Assembly: GCF_036013645.1 (NCBI RefSeq)
Contig: NZ_CP107869.1
Span: 6,262,001 to 6,326,000, forward strand
Reading direction: 5' to 3'
Source of the DNA: Streptomyces sp. NBC_00490
GTDB taxonomy: Bacteria > Actinomycetota > Actinomycetes > Streptomycetales > Streptomycetaceae
DNA: 64,000 nt
Shown: one piece after another, positions 34,103-39,274 of the stretch
How the letters are laid out: each line of letters begins with the position of its first letter
How positions within the stretch are numbered: position 1 is the first letter of the stretch
Made by a program: the position numbers and the translations under genes
The notes under the pieces: model-generated
Seen by the model: the letters and a program-made list of their open reading frames with translations, nothing else
The model's database searches: none
Told to the model about the DNA's origin: nothing

Positions 34103-34537
34103 ATGGTTCCGGGAACAGAGGCCTTCCTCGACGAAGTCCGAGTGGCTTTCACGGACGTCGCCGGGAGACTGGGACTGAGCGGGCCCGGCGAGGGGGAGCG
34201 GGACCGGCACCTCGCCGTCGCGACGTACACGGGCTCCGGCGTGCGGTACCGGATCGTCCTCGGCCTGTGGGACGGCGACGTCGAGACACACGCCTGCCGC
34301 GAGACGGGGCTGACCGAGTGCAAGGTCGGCATCGGCAGGCTGGCGCTCGCCGCGGGAGTGGCCGACAGCCGGGTCTCCTTCGGCGCCCGCAGTCTGCGGC
34401 AGCTGAGGAAGTCGCTGGCCGGACAGGTCCGTTACGTCGAGCTGGTGCATCCGCTGGTCTCCGGGGAACCGGAGGCGGCCGTCGCGCTGATGCGGGCCGC
34501 GGGGGCGCGGGAGTGGAGCAGGCCTGCCCTGCGGTGA
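34103..34537 (+). CDS. Conserved protein of unknown function upstream of the Ubl-like/DUF4132 pair
   Basis: A 144-residue soluble protein that I do not recognise. It looks like an alpha/beta domain: an amphipathic helix (TEAFLDEVRVAFTDVAGRLG), then beta-rich HLAVATYTGSGVRYRIVLGLWDGDVETHAC and a C-terminal helical half ending in EPEAAVALMRAAG. The ATG at 34103 is preceded by AAGGGGGCGG. It ends 41 bases before the start of the Gly-Gly-ending small protein on the same strand, so it may share that transcript. Confidence 0.72.
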   Translation: MVPGTEAFLDEVRVAFTDVAGRLGLSGPGEGERDRHLAVATYTGSGVRYRIVLGLWDGDVETHACRETGLTECKVGIGRLALAAGVADSRVSFGARSLRQLRKSLAGQVRYVELVHPLVSGEPEAAVALMRAAGAREWSRPALR

Positions 34538-34578
34538 CGCCGGGTCCGTTGTCAGTGGCGGGTCGTACTGTCGGCGGC

Positions 34579-34971
34579 ATGGGAATCGTGATGTTCGTCG
34601 ACGAGACGACAAGCGGGAGCCGTAGCGACGGCTGGGGCCTGGAGATCGCCGAGGAGCGGCTCAGTGTGCGGGAGTTGATCCGGCGCCGGGTCTTCCAGGA
34701 GGTCGCCGAGTACAACGCCCGTACGCCGGAGGTCTTCCAGGGCCTGGTCCAGCCCGAGGACACGGAGCGCGTGCTGAACGGCTACGCCCTGCGCACGCCC
34801 CGCCGGATAGACCCCGAGAAGCAGACCGACCTGGCGCTGAAGGCGTTCGCCGGGAACGGGTTCCTGGTGCTGGTCGGCGACCGCCAGGTCACCGAACTCG
34901 ACGAGGAGATCGAGCTGGTGCTCGGCACGGAGGTCACGTTCCTGAAGCTCGTGGCGCTGGTGGGTGGCTGA
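34579..34971 (+). CDS. Predicted beta-grasp (ubiquitin/ThiS-like) protein with C-terminal Gly-Gly
   Basis: A 130-residue protein. By eye it runs beta (IVMFVDET), beta (GWGLEIAEE), a long helix (SVRELIRRRVFQEVAEYNAR), an insert of about 45 residues, then FLVLVGDRQVTELDEEIELV and EVTFLKLVALVGG. The order strand-strand-helix-strand-strand with a last strand running straight into a terminal Gly-Gly is the layout of ThiS, MoaD and ubiquitin-like proteins. Their GG tail is adenylated and then carries sulfur or is conjugated. The fold is inferred, not proven. The stop codon overlaps the ATG of the DUF4132 gene (TGATG), which points to a joint function. No E1-like, JAB or E2-like gene is visible in this window. 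Confidence 0.6.
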   Translation: MGIVMFVDETTSGSRSDGWGLEIAEERLSVRELIRRRVFQEVAEYNARTPEVFQGLVQPEDTERVLNGYALRTPRRIDPEKQTDLALKAFAGNGFLVLVGDRQVTELDEEIELVLGTEVTFLKLVALVGG

Positions 34972-37445
34972 TGACGGGGAACGTCCAGACGTACAAGGAC
35001 CTGATCCGCAAGCGCTCCGCCGACGGGGAGCCCGAGGCGCTCGCCCACGACCTGCTCAAGGCCGCCGCCGTCAACAACGGCAACTGGACCGGGCTGTGGA
35101 GCGGGGTCCTGGACCGGCTGTGCGAACTGCCGCCCGAGACACGGGCACGGGTCGCCGACGGCCTGGTGACGCAGTACCACTCGCAGGAGGCCGGCCCGGT
35201 CGCCCGGGGCAACGCCCTGACGCTGCTCGGAATCGTCTCCCACGGACTGGAGCCCGACGATCGGCTCACCGCCCAGCGCCTGAAGCAGCTCGACGACCTC
35301 TCCCGGCAGCACTCCTTCTGGTACGGATCGCGCTACGAGGGCCTGGTCGAGGCCGAGCTGGCCGCGGGCCGCCCGCTCGCGCCCGCCGTGGTGGCCGTCT
35401 TCCGGCGTACGGCCGCCAGCCCCACATACCAGGACGCCACCCTGAACCGCGTGGTCAGGCAGCTCACCCACCCCGCCCTCAACGTCGGCGAGGAATGGGC
35501 CGAACAGGCACTGAGGGACGCCGGGGACGACGCCGACTGGCAGGCCCTGCTCGCCCACATCGCCACCGCCACCAGCGCCAGGCCCACCGCGAAGTGGGAC
35601 GCACCGGCCCGCGCGCTCGTCGACACCCTCGGCGCCGACCGCGTCCGCGAGACGGCCCTGACCTGGCTCGCCCTCGTCGGCCGCCCCCGTACCTTCCCCC
35701 TGACGGGCTCGGACTACGGACCGGACGTCAACGCCGCCTACGACCCCTACAACGCAGACGCCCTCCGAGGGGTGGCCTGGCTGCTCTCCCTGCTCCCGCC
35801 CCACCCGGACACGGCCCGCGCCCTCGGCGCCCTCGTCGAGACCTCCCTCAAGAAGGTCGCGGGCCTCGGGCCACGCAACCCCAAGGTCGCCAACGCCGGC
35901 GTCACCGCCCTCGCCCGCATCGACAGCGAGGCCGCCCTCGCCGAACTGGCCCGGCTCGCCACCCGCGTCACCTTCAAGGGCACGCTCAAGCTGCTCGACG
36001 GGGCCCTGGACGCACGGGCCGAGGCGATGGGCCTCAGCCGCGAGGAGATCGAGGAACTCGCGGTCCCCGCCTACGGACTGACGGAGGTGGGACGGGCCGA
36101 GCACCGGCTCGGGGACGTCACGGGCCTGGTCGAGGTCCACGGCACCAAGGCGGTGCTGAGCTGGCGCAACGCGACCGGCAAGGCCGTCAGGAGCGTGCCC
36201 GCCGCCGTCCGCCGGGACCACGCCGACGACCTCAAGGACCTCAAGGCGGCCGTCAAGGACATCGACAAGATGCTCTCGGCCCAGAGCGAGCGCCTGGACC
36301 GTCAGTTCCTGGCCCGCCGCACCTGGCCCTACACCGCCTGGCGCGAGCGCTGCCTCGACCACCCGCTGGTGGGCACCCTCGCCCGCCGCCTCCTGTGGAA
36401 GGTGGACGGCAGGACCGTCGGGTACGCCGAGGGCGCCCTGCGCACCCTCACGGACGACCCGGTGGACAGCGGCACCGAGGTCTCCCTCTGGCACCCGGTG
36501 GACCACGAACCCGCCGAGATCGTCGCCTGGCGCGACTGGCTGGAACGGCACGGCATCACCCAGCCGTTCAAGCAGGCCCACCGCGAGGTGTACCTGCTGA
36601 CGGACGCCGAACGCGCGACGGGCACCTACTCCAACCGCTTCGCCGCGCACTTCCTGCGCCAGCACCAGTTCCACTCGCTGGCGGCGATCCGCGGCTGGCG
36701 CAACAAACTCCGCCTCAGCGTCGACGACGAGGTGCCGCCGGCCGTCCGCGAGCTGCCCCAGTGGGGTCTGCGCGCCGAGTACTGGATCGAGGGCGACGGC
36801 GGCGAGCACTACGAGGACATCACCGAGTCCGGCAGCTTCCTGCGCCTGCGTACCGACCAGGTTCGCTTCTACCCGATCGACGCCCCGGAGAACTCGGCGC
36901 ACTGCTGCGGCGGCGAGTACCGCATGTGGCTGCGCGACGGCCAGGACCCGGTCGAGGCCCTGCCCCTGGACTCGATCCCCCCTCTCGTCCTGTCCGAAGT
37001 CCTGCGCGACGTCGACCTGTTCGTCGGCGTGGCGAGCGTCGGCAACGACCCCACCTGGCAGGACGGCGGCCCCGACGGCCGCTTCCAGGAGTACTGGACG
37101 TCGTACGGCTTCGGCGAGCTGGGCCAGAGCGCGGAGACACGACGCGTGCTGCTGGACCGCCTGATACCCCGCCTGGCCATCGCCGACCGCTGCACCCTGG
37201 AGGGCCGCTTCCTGCACGTGAAGGGCGACCGCCACACGTACAAGATCCACCTCGGCTCGGGCAACATCCTCCGCACTCCGAACGACCAGTACCTCTGCAT
37301 CGTCCCGAAGTCCAACGCGGCGGCCCCGCAGGCGGGTTACCTCCCCTACGAGGGAGATCGCATGCTGGCGGTCATCCTGAGCAAGGCGATGATGCTGGCG
37401 GCCGACACGAAGATCACGGACCCGACGATCCTGAGCCAGCTGTAG
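34971..37445 (+). CDS. DUF4132 domain-containing protein
   Basis: An 824-residue soluble protein. The N-terminal half is rich in short helical repeats (ARLATRV, AELARLA, LDARAEAMGLSREEIEELA), HEAT-like in appearance. The C-terminal ~350 residues match the DUF4132 (MolR-like) type: WRDWLERHGITQPFKQAHREVY, YSNRFAAHFLRQHQF, HCCGGEYRMWL and the end LEGRFLHVKGDRHTYKIHLGSGNI...PNDQYLCIVP. E. coli YehI/MolR-type proteins share this domain, but no biochemical role is established. It is translationally coupled to the Gly-Gly protein. HCCGG near residue 645 offers vicinal cysteines worth noting beside a Ubl-like partner. Confidence 0.85.
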   Translation: MTGNVQTYKDLIRKRSADGEPEALAHDLLKAAAVNNGNWTGLWSGVLDRLCELPPETRARVADGLVTQYHSQEAGPVARGNALTLLGIVSHGLEPDDRLTAQRLKQLDDLSRQHSFWYGSRYEGLVEAELAAGRPLAPAVVAVFRRTAASPTYQDATLNRVVRQLTHPALNVGEEWAEQALRDAGDDADWQALLAHIATATSARPTAKWDAPARALVDTLGADRVRETALTWLALVGRPRTFPLTGSDYGPDVNAAYDPYNADALRGVAWLLSLLPPHPDTARALGALVETSLKKVAGLGPRNPKVANAGVTALARIDSEAALAELARLATRVTFKGTLKLLDGALDARAEAMGLSREEIEELAVPAYGLTEVGRAEHRLGDVTGLVEVHGTKAVLSWRNATGKAVRSVPAAVRRDHADDLKDLKAAVKDIDKMLSAQSERLDRQFLARRTWPYTAWRERCLDHPLVGTLARRLLWKVDGRTVGYAEGALRTLTDDPVDSGTEVSLWHPVDHEPAEIVAWRDWLERHGITQPFKQAHREVYLLTDAERATGTYSNRFAAHFLRQHQFHSLAAIRGWRNKLRLSVDDEVPPAVRELPQWGLRAEYWIEGDGGEHYEDITESGSFLRLRTDQVRFYPIDAPENSAHCCGGEYRMWLRDGQDPVEALPLDSIPPLVLSEVLRDVDLFVGVASVGNDPTWQDGGPDGRFQEYWTSYGFGELGQSAETRRVLLDRLIPRLAIADRCTLEGRFLHVKGDRHTYKIHLGSGNILRTPNDQYLCIVPKSNAAAPQAGYLPYEGDRMLAVILSKAMMLAADTKITDPTILSQL

Positions 37446-37849: not shown

Positions 37850-39274
37850 GATGGCGTCCCTTGAAGTGGTGTAGCCGGGCTTGGCCGCGGAACGCGCGGG
37901 TGTCTGCCCGGGGCGTGCATCCGCTGGCGGTGCATGCTCCCTGAACAAGGGCAGGCCATCGCGTAAGTCTCCCTGGTGAACGGGCAGTTCAACCGGAGGA
38001 GCGCGATGGCCTTGTCCCAGTCTGAGCTGATGCGGCTGCTGGAGTCACTACGTCGGGCAGATGGAGTTGAAGCAATCAGGGTGGTGTGCGAGCGCATCCT
38101 GCAGGAGCTCATCGAGGCCGAGGCCACCGAGGTGATCGGTGCCGCCCCGCGTGAGCACTCCGAGTTGCGCACGACCTGGCGCAACGGACACCGCGACCGT
38201 CTGCTGACCACCCAGGCCGGCGACCTGGACCTGAAGATCCCGAAGGTGCGGACCGGGTCGTTCTTCCCCTCGCTGCTGGAACGTCGGCGGCGCATCGACC
38301 GGGCGTTGTTCGCCGTGGTGATGGAGGCATACGTGCACGGCGTCTCCACCCGCAGCGTGGATGACCTGGTCAAAGCACTCGGTGCGGACTCCGGGATCTC
38401 CAAGTCCGAGGTCTCGCGGATCTGCGGCGAACTCGACGAGGAGCTGACCGCGTTCAAGGAACGGCCGCTGGATCACACCGTCTTCCCCTACGTTTTCCTG
38501 GACGCCACCTACTGCAAGGCCCGGGTGAATCACCGGATCGCCTCGCAGGCCGTGGTCATCGCCACCGGCATCTCGGCCACCGGACACCGCGAGATCCTCG
38601 GCGTGATGGTCGGCGACAGCGAATCGAAGCCGTTCTGGACGAAGTTCCTGCGCTCGCTTCGGGCCCGCGGCCTGGAGAACGTCCAGCTGGTGATCTCCGA
38701 CAGCCACAGCGGGCTGGTGGCCGCGATCCGCACCGTCTTCCTCGGTGCGGCCTGGCAAAGGTGCCGCGTTCACTTCGTCCGGGACGTCTTCAGCGTGATC
38801 GAAAAGGGCTCAGGCGAGATGGTGGCAGCGACCATACGCACCATCTTCGCGCAGACCACCGCCGAGCAGGTCCGCATCCAGCTGGACGTGGTCGCCGACA
38901 TGCTCGGACGACAGTTCCCGCAGGTCAAGAAGATGCTGCTGGACGCCGCATCGGACATCACGGCGTTCGCGGACTTCCCTCCGACGCACTGGAAGAAGAT
39001 CTGGTCGACCAACCCGCTGGAACGGCTGAACCGGGAGATCAAACGACGGGCCGACGTCGTCCAGGTCTTCCCCAACCCCGCCGCCCTGGACCGACTCGCC
39101 GCCGCGGTCCTGGCCGAACTCCACGACGAATGGCAGGTCTTCGACCGCCGCTACCTCTCCGAAGCCTCCATGGCCGAACTCCTCACCACCCAGCCCACTC
39201 CACCCGAGCCGCAGATCACCCCGCAACCGGAATCGAAACAGCTGCCGTGACTACACCACCCCGCGGGACATGAC
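37850..39274 (+). mobile_element. IS256-family insertion sequence
   Basis: A 1,425-bp element bounded by the 9-bp duplication. Imperfect terminal inverted repeats share the core GTGGTGTAG (left end about 37866-37874) with CTACACCAC (39251-39259), and GTCCC/GGGAC further out. One complete transposase gene fills it, reading left to right, opposite to the interrupted protease gene. Length, single ORF and duplication size all fit the IS256 family. The intact transposase and exact duplication suggest a recent insertion. Confidence 0.93.
38006..39250 (+). CDS. IS256-family (MULE-type DDE) transposase
   Basis: A 414-residue transposase. N-terminal DNA-binding features include TTWRNGHRDRLLTTQAGDLDLKIPKVR. 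The DDE triad is seen as Asp in YVFLDATYCKARV, Asp in LVISDSHSGL (with the C/H motif RCRVHFVRD after it) and Glu in STNPLERLNREIKRR. Length and motifs are complete, so it is probably active. It starts with ATG at 38006 behind a strong Shine-Dalgarno (CCGGAGGAG). The C-terminal tail (TQPTPPEPQITPQPE) is variable in the family. Confidence 0.95.
   Translation: MALSQSELMRLLESLRRADGVEAIRVVCERILQELIEAEATEVIGAAPREHSELRTTWRNGHRDRLLTTQAGDLDLKIPKVRTGSFFPSLLERRRRIDRALFAVVMEAYVHGVSTRSVDDLVKALGADSGISKSEVSRICGELDEELTAFKERPLDHTVFPYVFLDATYCKARVNHRIASQAVVIATGISATGHREILGVMVGDSESKPFWTKFLRSLRARGLENVQLVISDSHSGLVAAIRTVFLGAAWQRCRVHFVRDVFSVIEKGSGEMVAATIRTIFAQTTAEQVRIQLDVVADMLGRQFPQVKKMLLDAASDITAFADFPPTHWKKIWSTNPLERLNREIKRRADVVQVFPNPAALDRLAAAVLAELHDEWQVFDRRYLSEASMAELLTTQPTPPEPQITPQPESKQLP

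Follow-up and report, generated by a model that had tools for sequence, protein, structure and literature searches.

The described systems closest to the gene pair reported here are the small β-grasp proteins MoaD, ThiS and SAMP, the bacterial E1/E2/JAB operons, in which a ubiquitin-like protein is coupled to a large partner gene, the MolR-type WGR-DUF4132 proteins and the Deinococcus radiodurans protein DR_A0165 (SEP068184). The latter and its MoaD-like shape are already in print, with a reported structural similarity to 5MPO and SAMP1 (PMC9650054). The pair itself was found in a 64,000-nucleotide stretch of Streptomyces sp. NBC_00490 (NZ_CP107869.1, positions 6,262,001 to 6,326,000), which we call the window. 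It consists of a gene for a 130-amino-acid β-grasp (ubiquitin/MoaD-like) protein with a Gly-Gly end (34579..34971, plus strand; based on the open reading frame (ORF) list, an AlphaFold2 model and homologues) and a gene for an 824-amino-acid DUF4132-DUF7737 protein (34971..37445, plus strand; ORF list and Pfam). We propose, giving it about an even chance, that the two form a DNA-damage module in which the small protein docks with its tail into the DUF7737 domain of its partner, next to Cys776, perhaps as a thioester. In the open PubMed Central (PMC) literature, a search which left subscription journals and preprints outside, we found no activity for DUF4132 proteins, no paper joining DUF4132 with 'ubiquitin-like' and none mentioning DUF5724 or DUF7737; DUF4132 itself is named in three papers. 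Nor did we find there a description of the family's wide distribution, of its partnership with DUF4132-DUF7737, of the PafBC-type promoter or of the covarying cysteine presented below.

The window protein shares with MoaD, ThiS and SAMP the predicted β-grasp fold and the C-terminal Gly-Gly. The product of ORF 34579-34971 ends in ...FLKLVALVGG, and its tail VALVGG (residues 125-130; 34951..34968, plus strand) follows the family end F[VIL][RK]L..L.G[GA]. The AlphaFold2 model has the beta-beta-alpha-beta-beta order of the ubiquitin/MoaD fold with a ~40-residue insert between the first helix and the third strand, and residues 128-130 form a loose tail (predicted local distance difference test below 50). 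VIA-align returned MoaD (5mpo) as top structural match and also matched ubiquitin, so that the ubiquitin/ThiS-like fold proposed in an earlier, sequence-only reading of this DNA is borne out at the level of a model. In contrast to MoaD, ThiS and SAMP, the window protein carries the insert, Ala ends are common in the family and there is no sequence-family match: the 130-residue protein gave no Pfam or NCBIfam match at E ≤ 1, and no Pfam profile, ThiS/MoaD included, matched the relatives L130, L131, P0195, P0145 and L020. A sequence search for solved structures yielded nothing convincing for the small protein (best E 0.4) and nothing for the large one. The small ORF is a real gene, with 1317 homologues at E ≤ 1e-3.

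The stop codon of the small gene (TGA, 34969-34971) has one base in common with the ATG of the 824-residue ORF (TGATG), which agrees with the overlap and the terminal Gly-Gly described in the sequence-only reading. The large protein belongs to the DUF4132 family (PF13569, residues 403-576, 36177..36698, plus strand; E 6.7e-53, 179.7 bits versus a gathering score of 27) and ends in a DUF7737 domain (PF24879, residues 721-824, 37131..37442, plus strand; E 3e-40). The earlier reading had missed this second domain and its cysteine that covaries with the tail, as well as the DNA-damage promoter and the connection with D. radiodurans drA0165-drA0166. The HEAT-like N-terminal half it had suggested received no HEAT repeat from Pfam in the window protein; a longer homologue (L027) carries HEAT_2 and DUF5724. 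The vicinal cysteines it had pointed out (HCCGG) are present in the 824-residue sequence but do not belong to the columns with at least 85 % conservation over 79 aligned rows, and we rejected them as an active site.

To determine how widely the pair occurs, we combined homologue searches with a scan of species genomes. A distant query, a Salsipaludibacter protein, retrieved 281 homologues including named Chloroflexota and Phycisphaerales records; for this search and the one with the window protein, details come from the best 120 of 281 and the best 120 of 1317 homologues. The genome scan, one of whose two peptide patterns (F..RL..LAG[GA]) favours GG and GA ends, gave 136 relatives, the best 80 of which were kept as broad loci. 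These come from Planctomycetota, Chloroflexota, Verrucomicrobiota, Armatimonadota, Cyanobacteria, Deinococcota, Actinomycetota, Bacteroidota, Pseudomonadota and Methanobrevibacter bins, many of them being metagenome bins whose names may be wrong. Occurrence is patchy, with the small gene in 13 of 296 genomes of the phylum and 20 of 392 of the phylum of L040. Within Streptomyces, the small gene is present in 40 of 151 genomes (in two of the 40 as an internally deleted remnant) and a DUF4132 match in 64.

Where the small gene occurs, DUF4132 is usually next to it. A same-strand match within 4 kb was found in 39 of the 40 Streptomyces carriers (31 downstream, 8 upstream) and a close one in 73 of the 80 broad loci, which span about ten phyla (68 downstream, 5 upstream). 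The downstream partners lie within 300 nt in 63 cases and at 321-794 nt in three, while two overlap according to a crude ORF call; five of the seven broad loci without DUF4132 are at contig ends. A further 26 stretches carried DUF4132 beside the small gene 23 times. The partner has been kept through changes in gene order, which is good evidence of joint function. The close pairing that the earlier reading anticipated therefore stands, but DUF4132 also occurs alone, including other copies in the genome of the window. Solo homologues of the small protein in five actinobacterial genomes (L019-L022, L024) end in ...SVVASGS, PVVAAEA or similar rather than in GG. Neither DUF4132 nor DUF7737 was matched in any of these five genomes, but both were matched in two genomes whose homologues end in GG. 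This distribution also speaks for a link between tail and partner, although the five have the same family code and could go back to a single event.

No third family recurred in more than 11 of 86 loci in a BLAST clustering of the neighbours, a procedure in which even the small genes fell together in no more than 65 loci, so that a short or very divergent family could escape it. The two commonest clusters (11 and 9 loci) had a histidine kinase and an ABC ATPase as scanned representatives. In the same 86 loci the clustering gave no conserved adjacent E1, E2 or JAB gene; as far as recurrent families go, this supports the earlier statement that no thiamin, molybdopterin or E1/E2/JAB gene accompanies the pair. 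This sets the pair apart from MoaD, ThiS and SAMP, as its loci have no recurrent molybdenum cofactor, thiamin or E1 neighbour, and also from the E1/E2/JAB operons, since it has a DUF4132-DUF7737 partner and no further recurrent family. A sulfur carrier in molybdopterin or thiamin chemistry, which the old name MolR and the MoaD-like fold would suggest, could draw on MoaD as top structural match and on modA, the third gene beyond the D. radiodurans pair. Given that no third gene family recurs, that no ThiS/MoaD profile matches, that the promoter is of a damage type and that GG is not invariant, we regard this role as very improbable.

The pair in the window is preceded by a RecA-NDp (PafBC-type) site, TTGTCAGTG-N8-TACTGT (34549..34571, plus strand), ending 7 nt before the β-grasp start codon. 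Its 23 bases match the consensus tTGTCRgtg-8nt-TannnT (PMC5656591) perfectly, while the chance expectation of a site with at most one mismatch in the window is 0.02. PafBC is the activator tied to this promoter (PMC8223512) and would be the likely regulator of the pair. Perfect sites were also present at the three orthologous loci first examined (L014-L016); the motif was not present at L017 and L018, which belong to another actinobacterial family. Among 29 further Streptomyces upstream stretches, 17 scored 12/12, six 11 and four 10 (27 of 29 with at least 10/12), compared to second-best scores of 7-10 within the same stretches, and the motif lay 6-7 nt from the start codon in 25 of the 27. 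In the two failing stretches, DUF4132 stands in front of the small gene. The stretch upstream of L023 reached 10/12, and L109-L112 reached 10-11/12 at the DUF4132 start. Altogether, the window, L014-L016, the 29 others, L023 and L109-L112 were covered, leaving out G308 and G390 of the 40 carriers. In the two remnants (G301 and G332; L181, L189), all that is left is the start of the small gene beside the end of DUF4132, and the RecA-NDp site is still perfect.

Genome-wide, the pattern had 45 perfect sites and its reversed version had 0. One perfect site lies before recA and others before uvrA, uvrB, recQ, radA, ogt and dnaX. This repair-gene control comprised nine ORFs picked by eye among 30 sites turned into loci; one of the nine (L163) had no NCBIfam match, and L141, L143 and a truncated UvrA piece remained below the NCBI cut-offs. 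Streptomyces DUF4132 frames that have no small gene beside them were scored as well: of 13, seven had a 12/12 site, one an 11/12 site and four a 10/12 site, the thirteenth, a truncated frame, having none. The 12/12 sites lie at the frame start, inside the 5' part or 0.8 kb before it (L106), and unrelated 10/12 sites occur in these stretches too. An initial search reported that the Mycobacterium smegmatis PafBC motif is not conserved in S. venezuelae (PMC9380542), whereas a RecA-NDp promoter has been reported in S. coelicolor (PMC5087735); our counts side with the latter.

At four loci (L113-L116), a perfect RecA-NDp site marks the start of a DUF4132 frame of ~1160-1240 codons. L113 and L115 have the DUF4132 domain in common with the window pair and are of the MolR type, differing in an N-terminal WGR, no DUF7737 and no β-grasp neighbour. 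Another site (G000:C1:6226799-6226821, L163), ~35 kb before the window, is located directly before the gene of a SWIM zinc-finger protein. SWIM, MoxR, vWA and DUF4132 genes are neighbours in the yeh region of Escherichia coli. By analogy, the SWIM zinc-finger gene and the DUF4132 pair may be part of the same damage response.

A second regulatory motif comes from D. radiodurans. Here, the homologue at L130 ends in LTALAGG, lies directly before a DUF4132 gene and has a gene annotated as thioredoxin in front of the pair. The published radiation-response motif (RDRM) of DRA0165, placed at -83 by PMC8533742, is present unchanged at L130:7925-7944 and begins 82 nt ahead of the start codon, and DR_A0164 has been described as a thioredoxin (PMC9650054). 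Based on these two matches, L130 is drA0165-drA0166, and by its sequence the upstream RDRM assigns the pair to the DdrO/IrrE regulon. D. psychrotolerans has the pair as well, with the same 15-base core upstream. For the regulation itself we rely on PMC8533742, according to which the drA0165-drA0166 operon is strongly upregulated on DdrO depletion and DRA0166 protein is raised by mitomycin C in the wild type, but not in an irrE deletion. Deletion of DR_A0165 was reported to increase catalase activity and antioxidant capacity, and binding to Trx1 was described (PMC9650054). The same source states that DR_A0165 occurs only in Deinococcus and lacks an RDRM. Both statements conflict with the homologues in about ten phyla and with the exact upstream RDRM; DR_A0165 is likewise GG-ended and placed before DUF4132, but its family is far wider than Deinococcus. 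Our result thus bears on a disagreement in print, as the motif denied by PMC9650054 is listed by PMC8533742. Upstream of the 80 broad loci, LexA-type boxes were scarce, with GAAC-N4-GTTC in two (0.46 expected) and the other box types in 0 or 1 of 80. Evidence of damage control is therefore confined to the Streptomyces and Deinococcus loci.

The MoaD- and ubiquitin-like fold and tail, together with the damage-type promoter, would also suit a protein modifier whose -GG is activated by a general E1-like enzyme or by the DUF4132 protein and which is attached to proteins after DNA damage. For the general enzyme, we would assume one of the MoeB/MoeZ type. The 157 proteins that co-purified in common with N- and C-tagged DR_A0165 (PMC9650054) would be in line with such a modifier, but C-terminal tags yielded the same 157 proteins and no conjugates are described in sections 32-34 of that work. 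Moreover, the tail ends in Ala in 24 of 80 loci and no recurrent neighbour family is fit as a dedicated E1, E2 or JAB. Taken together, we consider a modifier of this kind improbable.

The tail of the small protein is conserved in length rather than in its last residue. All of the 120 listed closest homologues of the window protein (best 120 of 1317) end in GG, whereas the best 120 of the 281 homologues of the distant query comprise 104 GG, 13 GA and one GF end and two tails extended by a few residues. At the 80 broad loci, we counted 50 GG, 24 GA, one SG and five extended tails, and an invariant terminal GG, which the sequence-only reading had proposed as a check, is thus not a property of the family. 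Variable or extended ends had been named there as an argument against the proposal; Gly-Gly is indeed not obligatory, but the tail length is tightly kept. On a tree of 72 partners, the tail state changes at least 11 times with three states counted. The extended tails SGRLW, VGRR, GGIF and GGYF belong to L131 and L105 (both Bacteroidota), L096, L099 and L101 (Methanobrevibacter bins) and L098; in L096, L099, L101 and L105, DUF4132 precedes the small gene. In the partners of these homologues Cys776 is replaced by Ser, or by Ala in the case of L131.

To find a counterpart of the tail in the partner, the DUF4132-DUF7737 core was scanned for residues associated with GG versus GA tails. One column stood out, Cys776 of the window protein (codon 37296..37298, plus strand), which lies in the motif LCIVP of DUF7737. 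In the first set the cysteine accompanied 43 of 50 GG tails, but none of 17 GA tails and none of five extended tails, all five of which had Ser; where it is replaced in this set, F, E, W, L and others were found. For pairs outside the discovery scan, taken from the 26 further stretches and four plasmid-collection records with an alignable DUF C-terminus, the cysteine was present with 24 of 24 GG tails and with neither of two non-GG tails (Ala and Arg). Over 97 pairs, Cys776 is present in 66 of the 73 that have a GG tail and in none of the 24 that have another tail (Fisher p 8e-17, with the discovery rows counted in). Among 1111 residue tests, the second strongest gave 3e-7, which is nearly ten orders of magnitude weaker and a level that shared ancestry can produce; columns 608, 365, 632 and 819, also associated with the tail, were rejected as candidates since they reach this level only. 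The analysis used 72 of 79 core rows first and then 97. Left out were L025 (a duplicate from the same genome as L097), the second L194 copy, L198 (partner C-terminus unmatched), DUF rows without an adjacent β-grasp gene, and L195, L201 and L219, in which DUF4132 was undetected.

These data suggest the following mechanism. Genotoxic stress would lead to co-expression of the pair from one promoter just before the small gene, under PafBC in Streptomyces and DdrO/IrrE in Deinococcus. The two proteins would probably form a complex, in which the flexible β-grasp tail reaches into the DUF7737 end of the large protein and its last residue meets position 776. The common form would have Cys at 776 and an exact Gly-Gly end, as required for a transient thioester or a different carboxyl-sulfur exchange; side branches would have lost the cysteine, and their tail would have changed to Gly-Ala or become extended, with docking alone remaining. 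GG without Cys is seen and Cys without GG is not, which fits a reaction needing both, with the tail drifting after the loss. A thioester is our guess, being the simplest reaction that needs both Cys776 and GG, and so is any purpose of it; packing would also explain a Cys-Gly contact. A more specific version, which we think unlikely, holds that DUF4132-DUF7737 is a single-protein ubiquitin-like transfer enzyme, taking its partner's Gly-Gly as a thioester on the DUF7737 cysteine. The Gly-Gly end would then be handed to a target or used as a switch after DNA damage.

Alternatively, the β-grasp protein could be a non-covalent regulatory subunit, its tail packing in a DUF7737 pocket without any carboxyl chemistry and Cys776 merely being the best-fitting side chain for a Gly end. 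The exact tail length kept even with an Ala end (the same 24 of 80 loci), the replacement of Cys776 by F, E, W, L and others, the seven of 73 GG tails without the cysteine and the lack of a recurrent activating enzyme beside the pair are all in line with pure docking. On the other hand, Cys never accompanies a GA or extended tail (0 of 24) and all five extended tails in the first set go with Ser, although the two non-GG pairs added later show Ala and Arg, and this one-sided pattern is closer to a lost reaction than to size fitting. Pure docking therefore appears possible to us, but rather doubtful.

Several observations weigh against our proposal of a docked and perhaps thioester-linked tail. 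The tail-Cys776 covariation is suggestive, weakened as it is by shared ancestry and few independent contrasts: phylogenetically independent pairs gave on average 3.5 for, 0 against and 1.5 without difference (median p 0.125), with five contrasts on well-supported branches. The 24 confirming GG pairs come mostly from one short-protein subfamily and so weigh less, and the confirming set holds only two new non-GG pairs. LCIVP could be a buried strand with the cysteine serving packing only. Parsimony gives at least nine switches between GG and GA on a quickly built tree, many of whose forks are weak, and this repeated switching, like the seven GG tails without a cysteine, implies that GG is not chemically indispensable. 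Pfam recognised no ATP-binding or E1-like domain in the DUF4132 protein, and recovery of the same 157 proteins with either tag gives no hint that the C-terminus has to be free. The pairing has exceptions as well. The small gene is missing from 111 of the 151 Streptomyces genomes and lacks an adjacent DUF4132 in carrier G333; L047 and L079 have a β-grasp gene with no DUF4132 detected in 10 kb downstream; and for the GG-ended homologues L195, L201 and L219, DUF4132 was undetected over 6-7 kb downstream and ~1 kb upstream. Conversely, DUF7737-bearing DUF4132 paralogues without an adjacent β-grasp gene exist, two of them in this genome.

For the DUF7737-bearing branch of DUF4132, the results provide a partner, a likely DNA-damage setting, with a different regulatory motif in each of two phyla, and a single residue to look at. 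If the cysteine and the Gly end react, this would be damage-induced ubiquitin-like chemistry in bacteria outside the known E1/E2 and Pup systems, and, should the large protein be a transfer enzyme, a ubiquitin-like pathway that is induced by damage and has no recognisable E1 or E2. With docking only, the pair would still be an unrecognised conserved stress or repair complex.

Besides the pair, a few minor features were recorded. The 144-residue ORF (34103-34537) considered a possible third member by the sequence-only reading ends 41 nt upstream of the small gene; we rejected it as an operon partner, as the promoter site 34549-34571 intervenes and no homologue of it was found at the Streptomyces loci L014-L016. 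In the genomes of L195 and L201, another pair is present at a different locus. The open frames L122-L125 (361-427 codons) show homology to the window DUF4132 protein over its N-terminal 350 residues only; two of the four are listed as containing an in-frame TGA, and a perfect RecA-NDp motif lies at the start of the frame in L122 and inside the frame in L125. Shortly downstream of the DUF4132 gene, the window contains a transposase-like ORF of 424 amino acids (37976-39250), which, judged by eye, is presumably IS256-like.

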